Assembly (NCBI GenBank): GCA_003661385.1
Contig: QMWA01000085.1
Location: 1-7,460, forward strand
Source of the DNA: Thermoproteota archaeon
GTDB taxonomy: Archaea > Korarchaeota > Korarchaeia > B14-G2
DNA: 7,460 bases
Direction: 5' to 3'
The notes below the pieces were generated by a model. It searched no databases, was not told where the DNA came from, and saw nothing but the letters and a program-made list of their open reading frames with translations. This document shows positions 299 through 7,460 of this stretch, in pieces. Positions within the stretch are counted from its first letter, which is position 1, and each line of letters opens with the position of its first letter. The position numbers were made by a program, and so were the translations under genes.

Positions 299-649
299 AC
301 TTCAGCTTTCACCAGTGCTCTTGAAGGACACCCCGATTTACCTGTTTGATGAGCCTACAGCTGGCTTGTCTGCTGAAGCTGTCAGAGCTGTTCATGATTT
401 TGTCCAAGAGGAGCTTGTTAAGAAGAGAGGTGCTTTGGTTCTTTATGCTGCCAATAATGTGATTGAGGCGGAGAGGATCTGTAGGCGGGTTTCATACTGG
501 ATAGGGAGCGTGTCGTAGCTGATGGAGATGTGAAGTCTCTGCTGGGTGGGATAGGCGCCTTGGAGAGTGTGCAGGTTGAGGTTTTAGGCGATGTGGATGA
601 GACTAGGGTGGCTCAGCTGGCCTGCTGTCGGCTCGCGATGTACTCCAAA
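297..649 (+). pseudogene. ABC transporter ATP-binding protein remnant (C-terminal half, frameshifted)
   Basis: The translation from 297 opens with RLQLSPVLLKDTP, resembling the stretch just after an ABC signature motif, then gives a textbook Walker B and D-loop (IYLFDEPTAGLS, about 327-362), then ALVLYAANNVIEAERICRRVSY. That is the H-loop region and following helix, with the usual His apparently replaced by Asn. At about 497 the frame is lost: the first frame ends at a TAG (516-518), while the next frame continues the family pattern with LDRERVVADGDVKSLLGG and a C-terminal tail to about 640. One missing base explains it. The Walker A/Q-loop half is absent; upstream lies an unrelated gene end. 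It cannot encode a working ATPase. It likely powered an ABC-2-type exporter. Codon use is T-rich (26 of 61 codons end in T before the frameshift), unlike the flanking gene at 2-298. A GTG at 315 could start a 67-residue fragment, but this is unlikely to be a functional gene. Confidence 0.85.
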
Positions 650-651
650 TG

Positions 652-659
652 CTTATATA
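652..659 (+). promoter_or_regulatory. TATA box of the vapBC operon
   Basis: CTTATATA preceded by an A-containing BRE-like stretch (CCAAATG) lies 33-40 bases before the GTG start of vapB. Archaeal transcription normally begins about 25 bases after the box, here near 682, leaving a leader of only about 10 bases. The promoter sits inside the last codons of the dead ABC gene, so the toxin-antitoxin pair is transcribed independently of it. Confidence 0.7.
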
Positions 660-691
660 CTGAACTTCGGTATATTACCTATGGTGGTAAA

Positions 692-952
692 GTGAAGGTG
701 AAGACTAGCATCTACGTGAGAAGTGATGTCTGGAGGAAGCTTAAGGAGTATGCTAGGAGAGAGGGCAAGGATGTCAGTGAGGTCTTAGAGGATCTAGCTC
801 AGGATCTGCCTTCTGAGGTTCTTGACGGGATAGGGGAGTTTGCTGGAGAGACCTGCTATGAGCTGGACTTTGAGCCTGTCTCTACAGATGGGGAGGTGAG
901 TACTCTGGTTAGGGAGATGAGGGATGAGAGGGGCTGCAGCCTATCTGGATAG
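692..952 (+). CDS. vapB: VapB-type ribbon-helix-helix antitoxin
   Basis: An 86-residue protein with an N-terminal ribbon-helix-helix DNA-binding fold: a short basic beta strand (residues 2-9, KVKTSIYV), then helix 1 (about 11-23, SDVWRKLKEYARR) and helix 2 (about 27-38, DVSEVLEDLAQD). The acidic C-terminal half ends in STLVREMRDERG, the kind of tail by which VapB antitoxins wrap around and inhibit the cognate VapC. The frame is open farther upstream to 530, but those codons belong to the ABC remnant. I chose GTG 692 because it follows the TATA box by 33 bases and the homology begins here; GTG 698, two codons on, is an alternative. The gene overlaps vapC by 29 bases, so the two are translationally coupled. 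By family analogy the VapBC complex would repress its own promoter. RHH-type rather than AbrB-type is judged from the sequence pattern only. Confidence 0.8.
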   Translation: MKVKTSIYVRSDVWRKLKEYARREGKDVSEVLEDLAQDLPSEVLDGIGEFAGETCYELDFEPVSTDGEVSTLVREMRDERGCSLSG

Positions 953-1379
953 CAGTGTCATCTTGAAGAGATATGTCCGTGAGGCTGGGAGCGAGATGGT
1001 TAGAGGACTCTACCTCAAGGCTTACTCAGGAGAAGCTACTATAGCATACAGCATGTGGAACATAGGTGAGGTGCTGGGTGCACTAGATAGAGCTGCTAGG
1101 CTAGGTAGGCTTAGCAGCATGCTTTACCGCGTTGTCAGAGGGAGGTTTCTGTCTGAGACCATCAGGATGGCTAAGCTAGGTGTGCTGCTGCTCCTCCCAG
1201 TCCGCTCACGTATCCTCATAGAGGCCTGGAGGATCCTGGAGAAACACCACGTATACGAGGCTGATGCTCTTCAGGTTGCGTCAGCTAAGTACGTGGGCGC
1301 AGAGAGCTTGCTGACTGGAGACAGGAGGCTAGCTGAAGTAGCTGAAGCTGAGGGCTTAAACGGAGTCTATGTAGGCTAG
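924..1379 (+). CDS. vapC: VapC-type PIN-domain ribonuclease toxin
   Basis: A 151-residue PIN-domain protein of ordinary VapC length. The four acidic positions expected to bind Mg2+ are all visible: D9 in YLDSSVILKRY, E49 in WNIGEVLGAL, D114 in YEADALQVASA, and D133 in LLTGDRRLAEVA. Residues 1-17 form the first strand and helix and residues 115-140 the characteristic final beta-alpha unit. VapC proteins of this class cleave specific RNAs (tRNA or rRNA in studied cases); the target here cannot be read from the sequence. The ATG at 924 lies within vapB and is preceded by a GGGAGATGAGGG purine tract that can act as ribosome-binding site. Both genes appear intact, so the pair should be functional. 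The gene ends 8 bases before the convergent pheA pseudogene. VapBC loci often sit in decaying or rearranged stretches, as here between two dead genes. Confidence 0.9.
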   Translation: MRGAAAYLDSSVILKRYVREAGSEMVRGLYLKAYSGEATIAYSMWNIGEVLGALDRAARLGRLSSMLYRVVRGRFLSETIRMAKLGVLLLLPVRSRILIEAWRILEKHHVYEADALQVASAKYVGAESLLTGDRRLAEVAEAEGLNGVYVG

Positions 1380-2219: not shown

Positions 2220-3488
2220 TCATAGGAAGAGCAGGGTGTATGCTGATGAGACTAGTAGGTGCAGTAGGGTGAATGGTGCTACTGTCTTCATGTACTCTCC
2301 TGCTGTCACCTTTGCTCCTACTCTCTTGAGCATGCCCATAGCTACGATCGTGGAGGGGGAGCCGAAGGATGTGAGCTTTCCGCCAGTTATCGCACCGAAT
2401 AGTATGCTCCACGTGAGCGGCTCTATGGCTATGGCTCCGGTCTGAGCTATCCTCTCTGACATCGAGAGCAGCAGCAGGGTTACTGGTATGTTGTCTATGA
2501 AGGCTGAGGCTATGGCGCAGACCAGCATGCTGGCTACAGCAGCTAGCCTACCTGCCATCATCAAGGCCTTTGAGGTCGCTGAGGCCAGCAGCCCCATTAC
2601 ACCAGCCTTCTCCATGCCTCCTACTATGATGTAGAATGATGCTAGGAAGAAGACTGAGCTCCAGTCTACGTTCCTGAATATGCTATCTGGGTCCTCTCCG
2701 CTCAGAGCTAGCATGAGGACTGCTCCACCGAAGGCTATGAGCTCTAGGCTCAAGCCAACCCTGTCCTTGAACACCAGTAGGAGCATTACGCTTGCGAATA
2801 TCAGTGTGGCCCTGTAGAATACCCTCCTGTCCTCAACTGCACTCCAGGGGTCTATCTCAACCTCCGCTCCAGCTGCTTTCCTAGGCTTAAACGCCTTAAG
2901 TGCTGCAGCTACTGTGAGCAGTGTTAGAGCTAAGACCAGTGGGAGTGTTGTCCTAATGAACTCCTGGAACCCCCATCCTGTCTTGGATGCTATGATGAGG
3001 CTTGGGATCGAGCTTATTGGGAAGGCTAAGCCTCCGACATCCACTATGATGGCCTCTGCTAGAAGCCACCTCTTCAAGTCCAGCTTGAGCTGCTCTCCTA
3101 TAGCTATCGTCAGGGAGCCTACTATTATCATTGCTGTTATGTTCCCTACGAATGCTGTGAGGAGGACTGTCATGAGCATGAATGAGGCCATCATGAGCGT
3201 CACCCGCCCTCCTGTAGCCTTAGCTATGCTCAGCCCTATGAACTCGAACAGCCCTGACCTAGCTAGCCCCTCACATAGCATCATGATCCCAACTATGAAG
3301 CCCAGGGTCTCCATGTCTATTGCCTCAAGCACCTCCACCCCGCTTTCGACCAGGTGCCTCTCAAAGCTGAAGACAACGACCAGGAAAGCCCCTATCATCG
3401 CTGCAACACACCTGTGATAGCGTTCAGTCAGCAGTAAGATCACAACGAGAGCGAATATCAGCAGAAACAAGTCTAGAGTTGGCATCAA
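2220..3488 (-). CDS. ArsB/NhaD-type permease (ion-transporter superfamily)
   Basis: A 422-residue, very hydrophobic protein with about ten to eleven membrane helices in two related halves. Each half carries the superfamily's paired re-entrant motifs: AFVGNITAMI (112-121) with SSIPSLIIAS (159-168), and AFIDNIPVTLLL (329-340) with TSFGSPSTIVA (373-383). A charged cytoplasmic loop (about 200-222) separates the halves. Known relatives carry arsenite, Na+/H+, citrate or dicarboxylates, so substrate cannot be set from sequence. It is divergent from a CoA-ligase/lyase operon, which makes a carboxylic acid plausible; this is inference. The start is TTG 3488-3486 with GAGGT (3500-3496) seven bases ahead; the adjacent ATG 3485 is equally possible. 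Neither start follows an obvious strong promoter, but a dyad at 3519-3533 overlaps the expected box. T-ending codons fall from 11 of the first 50 to 0 of the last 40. Confidence 0.85.
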   Translation of the reverse strand: MMPTLDLFLLIFALVVILLLTERYHRCVAAMIGAFLVVVFSFERHLVESGVEVLEAIDMETLGFIVGIMMLCEGLARSGLFEFIGLSIAKATGGRVTLMMASFMLMTVLLTAFVGNITAMIIVGSLTIAIGEQLKLDLKRWLLAEAIIVDVGGLAFPISSIPSLIIASKTGWGFQEFIRTTLPLVLALTLLTVAAALKAFKPRKAAGAEVEIDPWSAVEDRRVFYRATLIFASVMLLLVFKDRVGLSLELIAFGGAVLMLALSGEDPDSIFRNVDWSSVFFLASFYIIVGGMEKAGVMGLLASATSKALMMAGRLAAVASMLVCAIASAFIDNIPVTLLLLSMSERIAQTGAIAIEPLTWSILFGAITGGKLTSFGSPSTIVAMGMLKRVGAKVTAGEYMKTVAPFTLLHLLVSSAYTLLFL

Positions 3489-3649: not shown

Positions 3650-4903
3650 TTGGCCCGCCTCCTAGAGCATCAGGGGAAAGAGCTTCTCAAGTCCTGTGGG
3701 GTTAAGGTTCCTAGGGGAGCTCCTGCCTCTACTCCAGGTGAAGCGAGGAGGATCGCTGAAGAGCTAGGTAAGCCTGTAGCTGTCAAGGCCCAGGCTCTGG
3801 TGACAGGTAGGATGAAGGCTGGAGGAATACTCTTCGCCAACACCCCTGAGGAGGCTGAGGCTGCTGCATCGAAGCTGCTAGGCTCAGAGGTGAGGGGCTT
3901 CAGGGTTGAGAAGGTGCTTGTCGAGGAGAAGATCGATGTCCTCAAGGAGTACTACATCTCGATCACGGTAGATGACTCCCACAGGGTCAGAGGGCCTGTC
4001 CTCGTCTTCAGCCCAGAGGGGGGCATTGACATAGAGGAGGTTGCTCGAAGGCAGCCTGAGAAGGTCGCTAAGATACCAATCGACCTAGCAGTAGGCTTGA
4101 GGCCATACCACGCTAGGAAGGCAGTTAAGCTGACCGGGACGCCAGAGGAGGACGTGAAAGAGCTTTATGGGGTGGCATCGAAGCTCTACGAGGCTTTCAG
4201 GAGGTATGACGCCAGGCTGGTCGAGGTGAACCCTCTGGCGAAGTGCAGCAGCGGCCTGGTAGCCTTAGACTGCAGGATGTCGATAGACGACGCCTCAGCG
4301 TACAGGCACCCTGAGCTCGGAATAGACTTCGCTAGAGAGATGGATAGGCCACCAACCCGCCTGGAGAAGGCTGCCTGGAGGGTTGAGGAGTCAGACTACA
4401 GGGGCGTGTTCTTCTTCATAGAGATGCCCAAGAAGGAAGGGGAGCACTACATCGGCTTCCATGGGATAGGTGGTGGAGGAGCTATGATAGGCTTAGACGC
4501 CCTGGTGAGGCATGGGCTCAAGGTGGCGAACTACGCTGACACAAGCGGAAACCCAACAGCCTCCAAGGTCTATAGGTGCGCTAAGATAATCCTCTCGCAG
4601 CCTGGGATAGTAGGCTACTTCCTAGCAGGATGCGTCATAGCAAGCCAGGAGCAGTGGCACCACGCCCACGGCCTGGTGAAGGCCTTCAGAGAGCTCCTGA
4701 GGGACAAGCCTGGCTTCCCAGTAGTGATAGTGCTTGCAGGGAACAAGGAGGAGGAAGCTCTCAAGATACTTGAGGAGGGCTTGAGAGACCTCCCGATAAG
4801 GCTTGAGCTCTATGGCAGAGACTACGTCTATGAGGTAGACTACCTAGCTGAGAGGATGAGGAAGCTAGTAGAGGAGTATGTGGGAGGTGGTGGAGGTGCT
4901 TGA
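3650..4903 (+). CDS. Acyl-CoA ligase, ATP-grasp (succinyl-CoA synthetase beta-like) subunit; malyl/citryl-CoA ligase candidate
   Basis: A 417-residue protein. Residues 1-240 are an ATP-grasp domain like SucC: N-terminus ARLLEHQGKELLKSCGV, ATP-contacting K46 (VAVKAQ), the GRMKAGGI loop (53-60), and the Mg2+ ligands N194 (VEVNPL) and D207 (ALDC). Residues 265-410 are the CoA-ligase domain with GIGGGGAMIG (272-281), ANYADTSGNP (293-302) and VVIVLAGNKEEE (358-369). The ANY..xSGxP..AKxILS pattern resembles, from memory, ATP-citrate lyase and citryl-CoA synthetase more than ordinary SucC, where this part reads FLDVGGG. So the partner acid is probably a hydroxy-acid such as citrate, malate or citramalate rather than succinate. 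The start is TTG 3650, preceded by GGTG and agreeing with SucC N-termini. It is the first of four overlapping or closely spaced genes; the other ligase half is at 5159-6064. The last residues (VGGGGGA) are encoded by the ribosome-binding site of the next gene. Confidence 0.85.
   Translation: MARLLEHQGKELLKSCGVKVPRGAPASTPGEARRIAEELGKPVAVKAQALVTGRMKAGGILFANTPEEAEAAASKLLGSEVRGFRVEKVLVEEKIDVLKEYYISITVDDSHRVRGPVLVFSPEGGIDIEEVARRQPEKVAKIPIDLAVGLRPYHARKAVKLTGTPEEDVKELYGVASKLYEAFRRYDARLVEVNPLAKCSSGLVALDCRMSIDDASAYRHPELGIDFAREMDRPPTRLEKAAWRVEESDYRGVFFFIEMPKKEGEHYIGFHGIGGGGAMIGLDALVRHGLKVANYADTSGNPTASKVYRCAKIILSQPGIVGYFLAGCVIASQEQWHHAHGLVKAFRELLRDKPGFPVVIVLAGNKEEEALKILEEGLRDLPIRLELYGRDYVYEVDYLAERMRKLVEEYVGGGGGA
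4883..4889 (+). promoter_or_regulatory. Ribosome-binding site deciding the ferredoxin-like gene start
   Basis: GGAGGTG ends six bases before GTG 4896 and is the best match to the archaeal anti-Shine-Dalgarno. It favours GTG 4896 over ATG 4878, which lies upstream of it. A second GGAGGTG copy at 4892-4898 overlaps the start codon itself. The repeats create the glycine-rich C-terminus of the upstream ligase subunit. Confidence 0.6.
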
Positions 4904-5153
4904 GTTCGAGTTCAGAACTGGCCGGGTCAGGATAGACCTGGCGAAGTGCAAGGAGTGCAGCACGCTGGCGTGTGTGAAGGCATGCAGCCTCTACGGCCGT
5001 GGGATACTGAGGGTCAAGGGAGGGCTGCCTGCTCTAGCAGTCCCAGAGGACGAGGCTAGGAGGCTTTGCATAGAGTGCCTAGCATGCGAGGTCCAGTGTC
5101 ACCTCCATGGCAACCATGGTGCAAGCATAGAGCTCCCGATGCCAGAGGGGTGA
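4896..5153 (+). CDS. Small ferredoxin-like protein with two four-cysteine motifs
   Basis: An 85-residue protein with exactly eight cysteines in two groups: C18-x2-C21-x4-C26-x3-C30 and C58-x2-C61-x2-C64-x3-C68. The second is a canonical [4Fe-4S] motif; the first has a loop two residues longer than the usual CxxCxxCxxxC. Two [4Fe-4S] clusters are likely. Between them is a basic-hydrophobic strand-turn-strand (ILRVKGGLPALAV). The C-terminal HLHGNHGASIEL holds three histidines. There is no signal peptide or membrane segment, so it is cytoplasmic. The gene overlaps the upstream ligase subunit by eight bases (GTGCTTGA) and ends five bases before the downstream one, so it is made together with both ligase halves. 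A structural subunit of the ligase or an electron carrier are both possible; nothing in the sequence decides. Codons ending in T are 12 of 85, between the values of the flanking genes. Confidence 0.85.
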   Translation: MLEFEFRTGRVRIDLAKCKECSTLACVKACSLYGRGILRVKGGLPALAVPEDEARRLCIECLACEVQCHLHGNHGASIELPMPEG

Positions 5154-5158
5154 GTGCC

Positions 5159-6064
5159 ATGCCAATCCTCCTAGATGAGAACACCAGGGTGCTAGTCCAG
5201 GGGATAACTGGGAGAGAGGGAAGCAACAGGACGAGGTACATGCTAGAGTACGGCACCAAAGTTGTGGCTGGCGTGACCCCTGGGCGAGGAGGAGAAGAAG
5301 TCTGGGGTGTCCCAGTATACGACACTGTAGCTGAAGCCGTGAGGGAGCACGGCAGGATAGACGCCTCGATAACCTTCGTCCCAGGCCCCCTGGTGAAGGA
5401 TGCTGCACTAGAAGCAATAGAAGAGGGCATAAAGCTCCTGATAATGCCTGTTGAGCGGGTCCCCCTCCACGACACCATGGAGATACTCTACTACGCGAGG
5501 AGGAAGGGCACCATGGTCCTAGGCCCTGGGTCCTTCGGCTTGATAAGCCCAGGGAGAGCTGTAGCAGGCTGGATCGGCGGCTCAGTTGAGCTAGCCAACG
5601 AGGTGTTCAAGCCTGGGCCAGTTGGAGTGATGTCGAGGAGCGGAGGCCAAACCACAACGATATGCTGGGCCCTAAGCAGGCTCGGCATAGGAGTCAGTAC
5701 AGCAGTCCACATAGGAAGCGAGCCCCTAGTGGGGTTGAGCTTCCCAGAGCTCCTCAAGCTATACCAGGAGGACCAGGAGACCAAAGTTGTTGTGATGTTC
5801 GGTGAGATAGGCACCGTGGCAGAGGAGGAGGCAGCTGAGCTCCTGGAGTCAGGCGGTTTCAAGAAGCCTCTAGTAGCCTACGTGGCTGGGGCAGCAGCGC
5901 AGTCTGGAGTCAGGTACTCCCACGCCAGCGCGATAATAGAAGGCGGCAGAGGGACAGCTGAAAGCAAGCTGAGAGCGCTCAAGAAGGCTGGAGCCATAGT
6001 AGTAGAGAACCCACGTGACATAGCTCCCACAGTAAAGAAAGTCTTAGAGGAGGTGTCCGCTTGA
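5159..6064 (+). CDS. Acyl-CoA ligase, CoA-binding phospho-histidine (succinyl-CoA synthetase alpha-like) subunit
   Basis: A 301-residue protein, the usual SucD size. The N-terminal CoA-binding Rossmann domain (about 1-130) begins LLDENTRVLVQGITGREGS (4-22), followed by VAGVTPGRGGEEVWGVPVYD (36-55) and GPGSFGLISPG (122-132). The ligase domain has GVMSRSGGQTTTI (156-168), the subunit-contact glutamate E216 in MFGEIG, and H255 in RYSHASAIIEGGRGTAESK (252-270), which matches the histidine that is transiently phosphorylated in succinyl-CoA synthetase. All key residues are present, so with the 3650-4903 product it should form an active nucleoside-diphosphate-forming CoA ligase. An upstream ATG (5066) is in frame but lies inside the ferredoxin-like gene and adds 31 residues with no family similarity. 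ATG 5159 has GGTGA (5149-5153) five bases ahead. It overlaps the lyase gene by four bases. Confidence 0.9.
   Translation: MPILLDENTRVLVQGITGREGSNRTRYMLEYGTKVVAGVTPGRGGEEVWGVPVYDTVAEAVREHGRIDASITFVPGPLVKDAALEAIEEGIKLLIMPVERVPLHDTMEILYYARRKGTMVLGPGSFGLISPGRAVAGWIGGSVELANEVFKPGPVGVMSRSGGQTTTICWALSRLGIGVSTAVHIGSEPLVGLSFPELLKLYQEDQETKVVVMFGEIGTVAEEEAAELLESGGFKKPLVAYVAGAAAQSGVRYSHASAIIEGGRGTAESKLRALKKAGAIVVENPRDIAPTVKKVLEEVSA
6049..6055 (+). promoter_or_regulatory. Ribosome-binding site deciding the TTG start of the lyase gene
   Basis: GGAGGTG ends five bases before TTG 6061. The start codon overlaps the stop of the preceding gene as TTGA, so translation of the lyase is coupled to that of the ligase alpha-like subunit. 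Confidence 0.75.
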
Positions 6065-6945
6065 TCAAGCTGCTCAGGAGCATGCTCTTCGTCCCAGGAA
6101 ACAACATGAGAATGCTGCACAAGGCAGCATCCCTCAAAGCTGACGCAGTGATACTCGACATGGAGGATGCAGTCCCCATGGAAGACAAGGAGACCGCCAG
6201 GCTATTCGTCAGAGACATGGTGCCAGAGCTAGCAGAGAAGAGGGCTGGAATATACGTGAGAGTCAACAGCTGGAGCACAGGCCTAACCCAAGAAGACCTA
6301 GAGGCAGCAGCTCAGCCTGGCTTAGACGGCATAATGCTCCCCAAGTGCGAGACAAGAGAGGACATAGAGAAGCTGACCAGAGAGCTAGAGAAGCTCGAAG
6401 CGAAGAGAAGCCTCAAGAAGACGCCCATAGTAGCCTTAATTGAGACTCCACTTGGAGTAGTAAACGCATACAGCATAGCGTCAGCACCCAGGGTGATAGC
6501 AGTAGCATTCGGATCCGTGGACTTCACAAGGGAAATGGGCACAACACCAAGCAAAGAAGGCACGGAAGTCCTCTACCCAAGAGCCCATATAGCTGTAGCA
6601 GCGAGAGCAGCTGGAGTAGACCCAATAGACACAGTCTGGACAGACATAATGGACGTAGAGGGGCTGATAAGAGATGCCAAGCTGGCCAGAAAGCTAGGCT
6701 ACAGCGGAAAGCTCCTAATCCACCCCAACCAGATAGACCCAGTGAACAAGGTGTTCACACCAACCCCAGAGGAAGTAGAGTACGCCAAGCTGATAGTACA
6801 GGAGTTCGAGAAGGCCAAAGCAAAGGGAATAGGTGCAATATCGATAAAAGGGAAGATGATAGACACACCCTTCTACAAGCAAGCCCTAAGGACGCTCCAA
6901 ATACATCAAGCGATAGAGGAGCTAGAAAAGCACAGCACAACCTAG
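6061..6945 (+). CDS. CitE/HpcH-family CoA-ester lyase (malyl-, citramalyl- or citryl-CoA lyase)
   Basis: A 294-residue TIM-barrel lyase. Visible family residues are the opening RSMLFVPGN (6-14), LDMEDAV (32-38), substrate-binding R67 in YVRVN, the metal ligands E128 (ALIETPLG) and D154 (FGSVDFT), and the C-terminal signature IHPNQIDPVNKVFTPTPEE (220-238). Such enzymes split a 3-hydroxyacyl-CoA retro-Claisen fashion: malyl-CoA to acetyl-CoA and glyoxylate, citramalyl-CoA to acetyl-CoA and pyruvate, citryl-CoA to acetyl-CoA and oxaloacetate. The length fits malyl-CoA lyase or CitE equally well. There is no sign of a citrate lyase alpha or acyl-carrier subunit nearby, so a free CoA ester made by the preceding ligase is the likely substrate. 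The lyase could also work in the condensing direction. It is last in the operon; only about 14 of its 294 codons end in T. Confidence 0.9.
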   Translation: MIKLLRSMLFVPGNNMRMLHKAASLKADAVILDMEDAVPMEDKETARLFVRDMVPELAEKRAGIYVRVNSWSTGLTQEDLEAAAQPGLDGIMLPKCETREDIEKLTRELEKLEAKRSLKKTPIVALIETPLGVVNAYSIASAPRVIAVAFGSVDFTREMGTTPSKEGTEVLYPRAHIAVAARAAGVDPIDTVWTDIMDVEGLIRDAKLARKLGYSGKLLIHPNQIDPVNKVFTPTPEEVEYAKLIVQEFEKAKAKGIGAISIKGKMIDTPFYKQALRTLQIHQAIEELEKHSTT

Positions 6946-7173: not shown

Positions 7174-7317
7174 ATGTCGGCTAGAGACATACTCTTAGTT
7201 GCGGTAGCTCTGATAGCAGCCTACATACTGTATAAGGTCATCAAGCTGGTGCTCCCAGCTCTAATAATCCTCTTCCTAGCCTACTTAATATACAGGACGT
7301 TAAAGAGGTCGCTATAG
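7174..7317 (+). CDS. Small two-helix membrane protein, 47 residues
   Basis: ATG 7174 to TAG 7315-7317 encodes MSARDILLVAVALIAAYILY, then KVIKLVLPALIILFLAYLIY and RTLKRSL. There are two hydrophobic segments (about 5-20 and 25-40) separated by a short basic turn, and a strongly basic C-terminus. This favours a hairpin with both ends outside and the turn inside, or a bent single span; the positive-inside rule is ambiguous here. It has a good TATA box and GGTGG (7164-7168) five bases before the ATG, which is why I call it a gene despite its size. No family is recognised. It is separately transcribed from the ligase/lyase operon, so a functional tie to it is not implied. Confidence 0.65.
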   Translation: MSARDILLVAVALIAAYILYKVIKLVLPALIILFLAYLIYRTLKRSL

Positions 7318-7460
7318 GCCTGCGAGCCGGTGGCGCAGCTTACAGCAGAAGCCCAGCATACCAGGGCGCCTGTGGCCTCGATACAGTTGTCTATTGCCTA
7401 TCTTCGGGCTGTGCCCTGTCTCTGGCCAGTGGCAGCTGGCCTAGAGCACCTATCCTGCGC
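7318..7460. other. Unassigned window end
   Basis: Two plus-strand frames stay open to the edge, but neither has a ribosome-binding site or family resemblance. On the minus strand a frame from the edge ends in TAG at 7393-7391 after 22 codons (7459-7391), and its A-rich codons resemble the 3' ends of other genes here. It may be the tail of a convergent gene, but I cannot support a call. Confidence 0.2.

Follow-up and report, generated by a model that had tools for sequence, protein, structure and literature searches.

A small ferredoxin with eight cysteines appears to be an inherent and apparently obligatory part of a group of CoA ligases that is found in bacteria and archaea, where it behaves as a third subunit of a predicted beta-ferredoxin-alpha complex. 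The analysis started from one archaeal operon in the window, i.e. the whole stretch of 7,460 nucleotides that was analysed, which represents one entire contig of a fragmented 1.74-Mb assembly (~91% complete). Members of the succinyl-CoA synthetase (SCS)/ATP-citrate lyase (ACL) superfamily are textbook non-redox enzymes, and we know of no CoA ligase of this kind that has an iron-sulfur third part. A published description of a ferredoxin-bearing SCS/ACL or of a citramalate-CoA ligase was not found in the open-access literature, and none of the curated Pfam and NCBIfam models names this ferredoxin or this ligase as a family. A deeply conserved bacterial and archaeal branch that never parts with its ferredoxin would mean that acid activation has an iron-sulfur cluster as an integral component.

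Operon layout and distribution of the ferredoxin

The operon consists of four co-directional genes:

3650-4903, + strand: beta-like (ATP-grasp) ligase subunit, 417 amino acids, TTG start
4896-5153, + strand: ferredoxin subunit, 85 amino acids, GTG start, eight cysteines in two 4Fe-4S motifs
5159-6064, + strand: alpha-like (CoA-binding) ligase subunit, 301 amino acids, phospho-histidine motif SHASAIIEGGRGT
6061-6945, + strand: CitE/HpcH-family CoA-ester lyase, 294 amino acids (PF03328, 201.7 bits)

A sequence-only reading had described an eight-cysteine ferredoxin gene that is joined to a beta gene by an 8-nt overlap and to an alpha gene by a 5-nt gap, and this arrangement was confirmed on the sequence. 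The lyase gene, which lies outside the span given in that reading, overlaps alpha by 4 nt. The ferredoxin gene runs from a GTG start codon at 4896 to 5153, and the start codon of alpha is the ATG at 5159. Translation of the ferredoxin could alternatively begin at an in-frame ATG (4878), which yields a protein of 91 amino acids; the starts of related ferredoxins match the residue at 4896 and not this ATG. No RNA family or tRNA was found in the window. At 530-1379 (+), a weak ribbon-helix-helix protein (below Pfam cutoffs) overlaps a PIN-domain protein (41.1 bits, cutoff 23.6), likely as a toxin-antitoxin pair, and a small ORF at 7175-7318 (+) reads from the raw sequence as a short membrane protein (MSARDILLVAVALIAAYILYKVIKLVLPALIILFLAYLIYRTLKRSL).

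Named genomes were searched with the window ferredoxin, using patterns derived from it that reach close relatives only, and this returned 66 loci from many bacterial groups and several archaea. All 66 ferredoxins are located at such a ligase. In approximately 52 loci, all bacterial, the ferredoxin forms the C-terminal domain within a beta subunit of ~515 amino acids, while 12 loci contain a separate gene (archaea, Firmicutes, Beijerinckiaceae and two Chloroflexota) and two begin at contig edges. Where it is not fused, the ferredoxin gene otherwise sits between beta and alpha; at locus L014, beta is found 2.5 kb upstream of it. Alpha is present in 65 of the 66 loci and immediately next in 62. 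At L032, L063 and L065, alpha is preceded by 1.1-2.3 kb, and no alpha was found near L078.

Because retrieval by the ferredoxin is limited to close relatives, the search was reversed and beta was used as bait in 101 genomes. Eleven archaeal family betas, defined by at least 51% identity over the full length and including the window's own, are present in exactly the 11 genomes that carry the ferredoxin. The other full-length matches are at most ~41% identical and belong to ferredoxin-less genomes or are second copies; some partial ATP-grasp matches reach 54%. In the chloroflexotal class to which the genome of L046 belongs, all 27 genomes with a beta of at least 48% identity have the ferredoxin in the locus, fused or adjacent in 26 and at a distance in one (L164, of the L014 type). 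The same holds for the pyrinomonadal order of the L074 genome, in which all eight members with beta carry the ferredoxin, and even in the divergent paralogs L126 and L131 (36-38% identity) beta and alpha flank a separate ferredoxin. The canonical succinyl-CoA synthetases examined (L127, L128, L130 and L166-L168) all lack it.

The earlier proposal of a third subunit is supported by these observations: the ferredoxin always accompanies the ligase, forms one protein with beta in most bacteria and turns up whenever beta is the bait. The related question of whether homologs always reside at ligase genes can be answered positively for the 66 named-genome loci, none of which lies elsewhere, with a retrieval that covers close relatives. 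Weak ferredoxin matches in relatives (L012 and L013, E ~1e-3) have no ligase match alongside and were excluded from the family.

Cysteine pattern and predicted fold

The eight cysteines of the ferredoxin are located at positions 18, 21, 26, 30, 58, 61, 64 and 68 of the 85-residue protein, equivalent to 24, 27, 32, 36, 64, 67, 70 and 74 in the 91-residue numbering used below, and they form the motifs C-x2-C-x4-C-x3-C and C-x2-C-x2-C-x3-C. The AlphaFold2 model displays a confidently predicted bicluster-ferredoxin fold (pLDDT 94.8), and the model of a fused homolog is also confident (92.1). Predicted fold and sequence together provide the eight cysteines, two motifs and ferredoxin fold of a 2[4Fe-4S] ferredoxin. 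Structural matches of the model are mainly ferredoxin domains with middling scores, and they include RNA polymerase D-type domains. None of the curated Pfam or NCBIfam models passes its cutoff; the window ferredoxin scores just below that of the Pfam model Fer4_2 (22.3 vs 24.5 bits), which counts against the explanation favored here. The gene is real and conserved, since it has 66 homologous loci, relatives in 10 other archaeal genomes and a confident structural model.

The x4 spacing in the first motif, which had been considered unusual and a possible mark of a distinct family, proved to be ordinary and was discarded as a family marker because identical spacing occurs in other proteins, e.g. 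PDB 8c0z_C (CTQCTEAWCLHSC). Conserved in the family are a CxECLACE motif and a C-terminal LP.

In an alignment of 109 ferredoxin sequences, 86 contain all eight cysteines in register. According to the standard ligand rule, cluster I is presumably bound by C24, C27, C32 and C74, and cluster II by C36, C64, C67 and C70. C70 is invariant, as is a glutamate at position 66. Ten archaeal sequences show a shifted motif I (C-x4-C-x3-C-x3-C), and all ten also have one cluster-II cysteine replaced by aspartate. Cluster-II ligands are changed in 15 of the 109 sequences, every time to aspartate, at three positions and in several lineages. Eight sequences from two lineages have jointly lost C24, C27 and C32, seven of them also C74, and retain all cluster-II ligands. 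This pattern is consistent with what two real 4Fe-4S clusters would leave, and its best reading is that cluster II is probably the essential and cluster I the auxiliary cluster, since cluster-I ligands are lost together and cluster-II ligands change only to aspartate.

The ligase, its lyase partners and the likely substrate

The window beta matches PF08442 (198 bits). It lacks PF00549 and has PF16114 instead, the citrate-binding domain of ACL (30.2 bits against a cutoff of 26.8). Among 59 family betas, PF16114 is present in 55 and PF00549 in none (E 0.001), whereas E. coli SucC shows the opposite and contains PF00549 (113.9 bits). Over the full length, the window beta is 51-55% identical to the ferredoxin-type betas of relatives and ~40% or less to SCS. 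Alpha contains PF02629 and PF00549. An assignment as succinyl-CoA synthetase was rejected, because both subunits miss the NCBIfam cutoffs (beta, 253.8 vs 370 bits; alpha, 309.8 vs 353.2 bits for TIGR01019 and 301.7 vs 336 bits), while E. coli SucC reaches 611.7 bits on the SCS model. Malate-CoA ligase (MtkAB) was likewise discarded (NF010647, 169.9 bits vs a cutoff of 604).

In a beta tree calculated from ligase columns by a quick method with no bootstrap, and with the divergent, too long-branched L058 left out, 71 ferredoxin-bearing betas are located on one side of a branch with an SH-aLRT of 99, opposite SCS and citryl-CoA synthetase. The fused or separate state requires three changes on this tree and the lyase type one. 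The family signature SGNPxASK ... ASQEQ-W/F-H (SSQQLDN in a divergent branch) replaces the SCS motif GGITR and the ANNT/VRR of citryl-CoA synthetase. The latter combination, as seen in 6hxq_B, is not found in the family, which has no second arginine; according to work on human ACLY, the ANNT/VRR residues contact citrate. A distinct acid-site signature points to an acid that is related to, yet different from, the substrates of the succinate and citrate synthetases. The only ATP-grasp_2 ligase gene of the window genome is that of the operon, and no separate SCS beta was found in this ~91% complete assembly; the ten relatives that carry the ferredoxin ligase possess an additional, SCS-like beta.

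The window lyase belongs to the HpcH/HpaI fold family by its PF03328 score. Its closest solved structure is the CitE-like CLYBL (5vxc, E 1.8e-49), a citramalyl-CoA lyase, and canonical citrate lyase beta (CitE) was excluded (TIGR01588, 261.2 bits vs an equivalog cutoff of 443.4). The protein is predicted to act as citramalyl-CoA (or malyl/citryl-CoA) lyase. Across 77 loci, the lyase partner is of the CitE type in 22 and of the citryl-CoA-lyase type, in several cases fused to alpha, in 43; a third partner from the HMG-CoA-lyase family occurs at L042 (L031 by clustering). As the same ferredoxin is retained with three unrelated lyase types, it goes with the ligase rather than with the lyase. At L021, L029, L046, L014 and others there is a small HD-domain gene (PF01966), repeatedly beside operons of the citryl-CoA-lyase type and once near a CitE-type locus.

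Gene neighborhoods provide further hints on the substrate. L022 and L024 encode in a row the S and E subunits of methylaspartate mutase (glutamate mutase), methylaspartate ammonia-lyase, beta-ferredoxin, alpha and the CitE lyase. Both mutase subunits score above the NCBIfam equivalog cutoffs; the ammonia-lyase does so at L022 and was assigned by similarity at L024, which also matches fumarase/mesaconase subunits. L053, L068 and L069 likewise have methylaspartate ammonia-lyase, and methylaspartate-pathway neighbors are found in five loci. Citramalate is the best-supported candidate substrate at L022 and L024, since the ligase genes there follow a complete methylaspartate pathway. At the Archaeoglobus loci, class I fumarase (mesaconase-type) genes are located immediately downstream, and many bacterial loci have aconitase/IDH-like or PrpD genes instead, which weakens the case for citramalate. 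Many loci of the citryl-CoA-lyase type have aconitase- and isocitrate-dehydrogenase-type neighbors, which suggests that substrates may differ between the family branches. In the archaeal relatives L112-L117, an MmgE/PrpD gene follows the lyase where the contig reaches that far, and TfrAB-like fumarate reductase genes are located upstream at L115.

For the window ligase, citramalate is our best guess, with malate, citrate or another alkylmalate as possible substrates. Away from the operon, its genome encodes a single class I fumarase alpha, accompanied by beta, and a single MmgE/PrpD. Methylaspartate ammonia-lyase was not found by family search in this ~91% complete genome, which speaks against citramalate in the window. 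A CitMHS/ArsB-type membrane transporter (2220-3488, - strand, PF03600, 189.6 bits) is divergent from the operon, with ~160 bp between, and could import the acid; among the relatives inspected, none showed a recognisable transporter of this type next to the ligase.

Alternatively, the family could act on citrate, as a citryl-CoA synthetase of a reductive or cleaving citrate pathway, with the same options for the ferredoxin. The PF16114 domain, the citryl-CoA-lyase-, aconitase- and isocitrate-dehydrogenase-type genes at many loci and the Hydrogenobacter enzyme 6hxq_B as second-best PDB match are in line with this possibility. We nonetheless consider it rather unlikely, given that ASQEQ and a non-arginine residue replace the ANNT/VRR signature, that methylaspartate-pathway neighbors occur and that the window lyase is CLYBL-like. 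Citrate could still apply to the Ccl-type branch.

A proposed built-in ferredoxin module and its relation to known systems

Our preferred model, for which we see about as many reasons to trust as to doubt it, is an ATP-dependent hydroxy-acid CoA ligase that acts together with a CoA-ester lyase and has a 2[4Fe-4S] ferredoxin built in as structural and regulatory module. Via a phospho-histidine, as in succinyl-CoA synthetase, beta, ferredoxin and alpha would convert a 2-hydroxy dicarboxylic acid, with (S)-citramalate as the likeliest candidate, into the CoA ester. The CitE-type lyase would then split this ester and release acetyl-CoA together with a 2-oxo acid, which would be pyruvate in the case of citramalate. 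Placed between beta and alpha, the ferredoxin would be a permanent module, because ligation needs no electrons, there is no constant redox partner and three lyases share the ferredoxin. Cluster II, possibly with one aspartate ligand, would make assembly or activity of the ligase depend on redox state or oxygen, while cluster I would be auxiliary. The module is probably redox- or oxygen-sensitive through cluster II. It is a more tentative and somewhat doubtful proposal that a widespread family of hydroxy-acyl-CoA ligases is gated by the ferredoxin redox state, tying the cleavage of citramalate and related acids to the ferredoxin pool. If true, an energy-spending ligation step would be linked to the ferredoxin pool of the cell.

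The aspartate and cluster-loss patterns also fit a purely structural cluster, and this weakens the case for redox gating. The clusters might serve only to stabilise the small domain and to attach beta to alpha, with no redox change in function, much as in subunit D of archaeal RNA polymerase with its Fe-S domain. The permanent fusion to a non-redox enzyme, the two lineages that retain cluster II alone with its surrounding residues and the RNA polymerase D-type domains among the structural matches all agree with such a role. However, several lineages conserve a choice between cysteine and aspartate at cluster II, which one would not expect if the cluster were a mere staple, and most sequences hold all eight cysteines in register; an exclusively structural function seems unlikely to us.

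A role of the ferredoxin as a ligase-docked electron carrier, serving a redox enzyme that uses the products or makes the substrate (pyruvate:ferredoxin oxidoreductase or a fumarate-reductase-like flavoprotein), is improbable: the full 2[4Fe-4S] motif set of the 86 sequences and fumarate-reductase-like genes near L014, L015, L017, L018 and L115 are compatible with it, but the covalent fusion to beta is permanent, and the loss of cluster I in eight otherwise preserved sequences together with the lack of a constant 2-oxoacid:ferredoxin oxidoreductase or other redox neighbor among the loci examined (an indolepyruvate oxidoreductase subunit is located near L027 only) makes a dedicated relay of electrons through two clusters slightly less plausible.

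The ferredoxin shares its eight-cysteine bicluster pattern and fold with other 2[4Fe-4S] ferredoxins and domains, such as HgcB, the DmsB/HycB type and RNA polymerase subunit D, but it differs from these by its dedication to one CoA ligase, its CxECLACE motif and its C-terminal LP. A candidate ATP-dependent citramalate-CoA ligase would offer a further way, besides the CoA-transferase and carrier-protein routes, of ending mesaconate and glutamate degradation. Annotation would label such genes as succinyl-CoA synthetase, both in many bacteria and in uncultured archaea, which would mislead pathway reconstructions. SucCD is similar in overall fold and phospho-histidine alpha subunit, but it contains PF00549 in beta and lacks a ferredoxin, and the window proteins stay below the SucCD family cutoffs. 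CcsA/CcsB of Hydrogenobacter thermophilus and ATP-citrate lyase are similar in several respects: they are two-subunit ATP-grasp CoA ligases with a PF16114-type acid domain, SGNP/GGNP and RPPT motifs and a CoA-ester lyase that follows or is fused. Yet they have no ferredoxin, carry another acid-binding signature and are separated by a strongly supported branch. The known systems for citramalate activation and cleavage perform the same step where the mesaconate or methylaspartate route ends, but they rely on a CoA transferase or on a lyase complex with an acyl-carrier protein, whereas an ATP-dependent ligase with a ferredoxin is predicted here.
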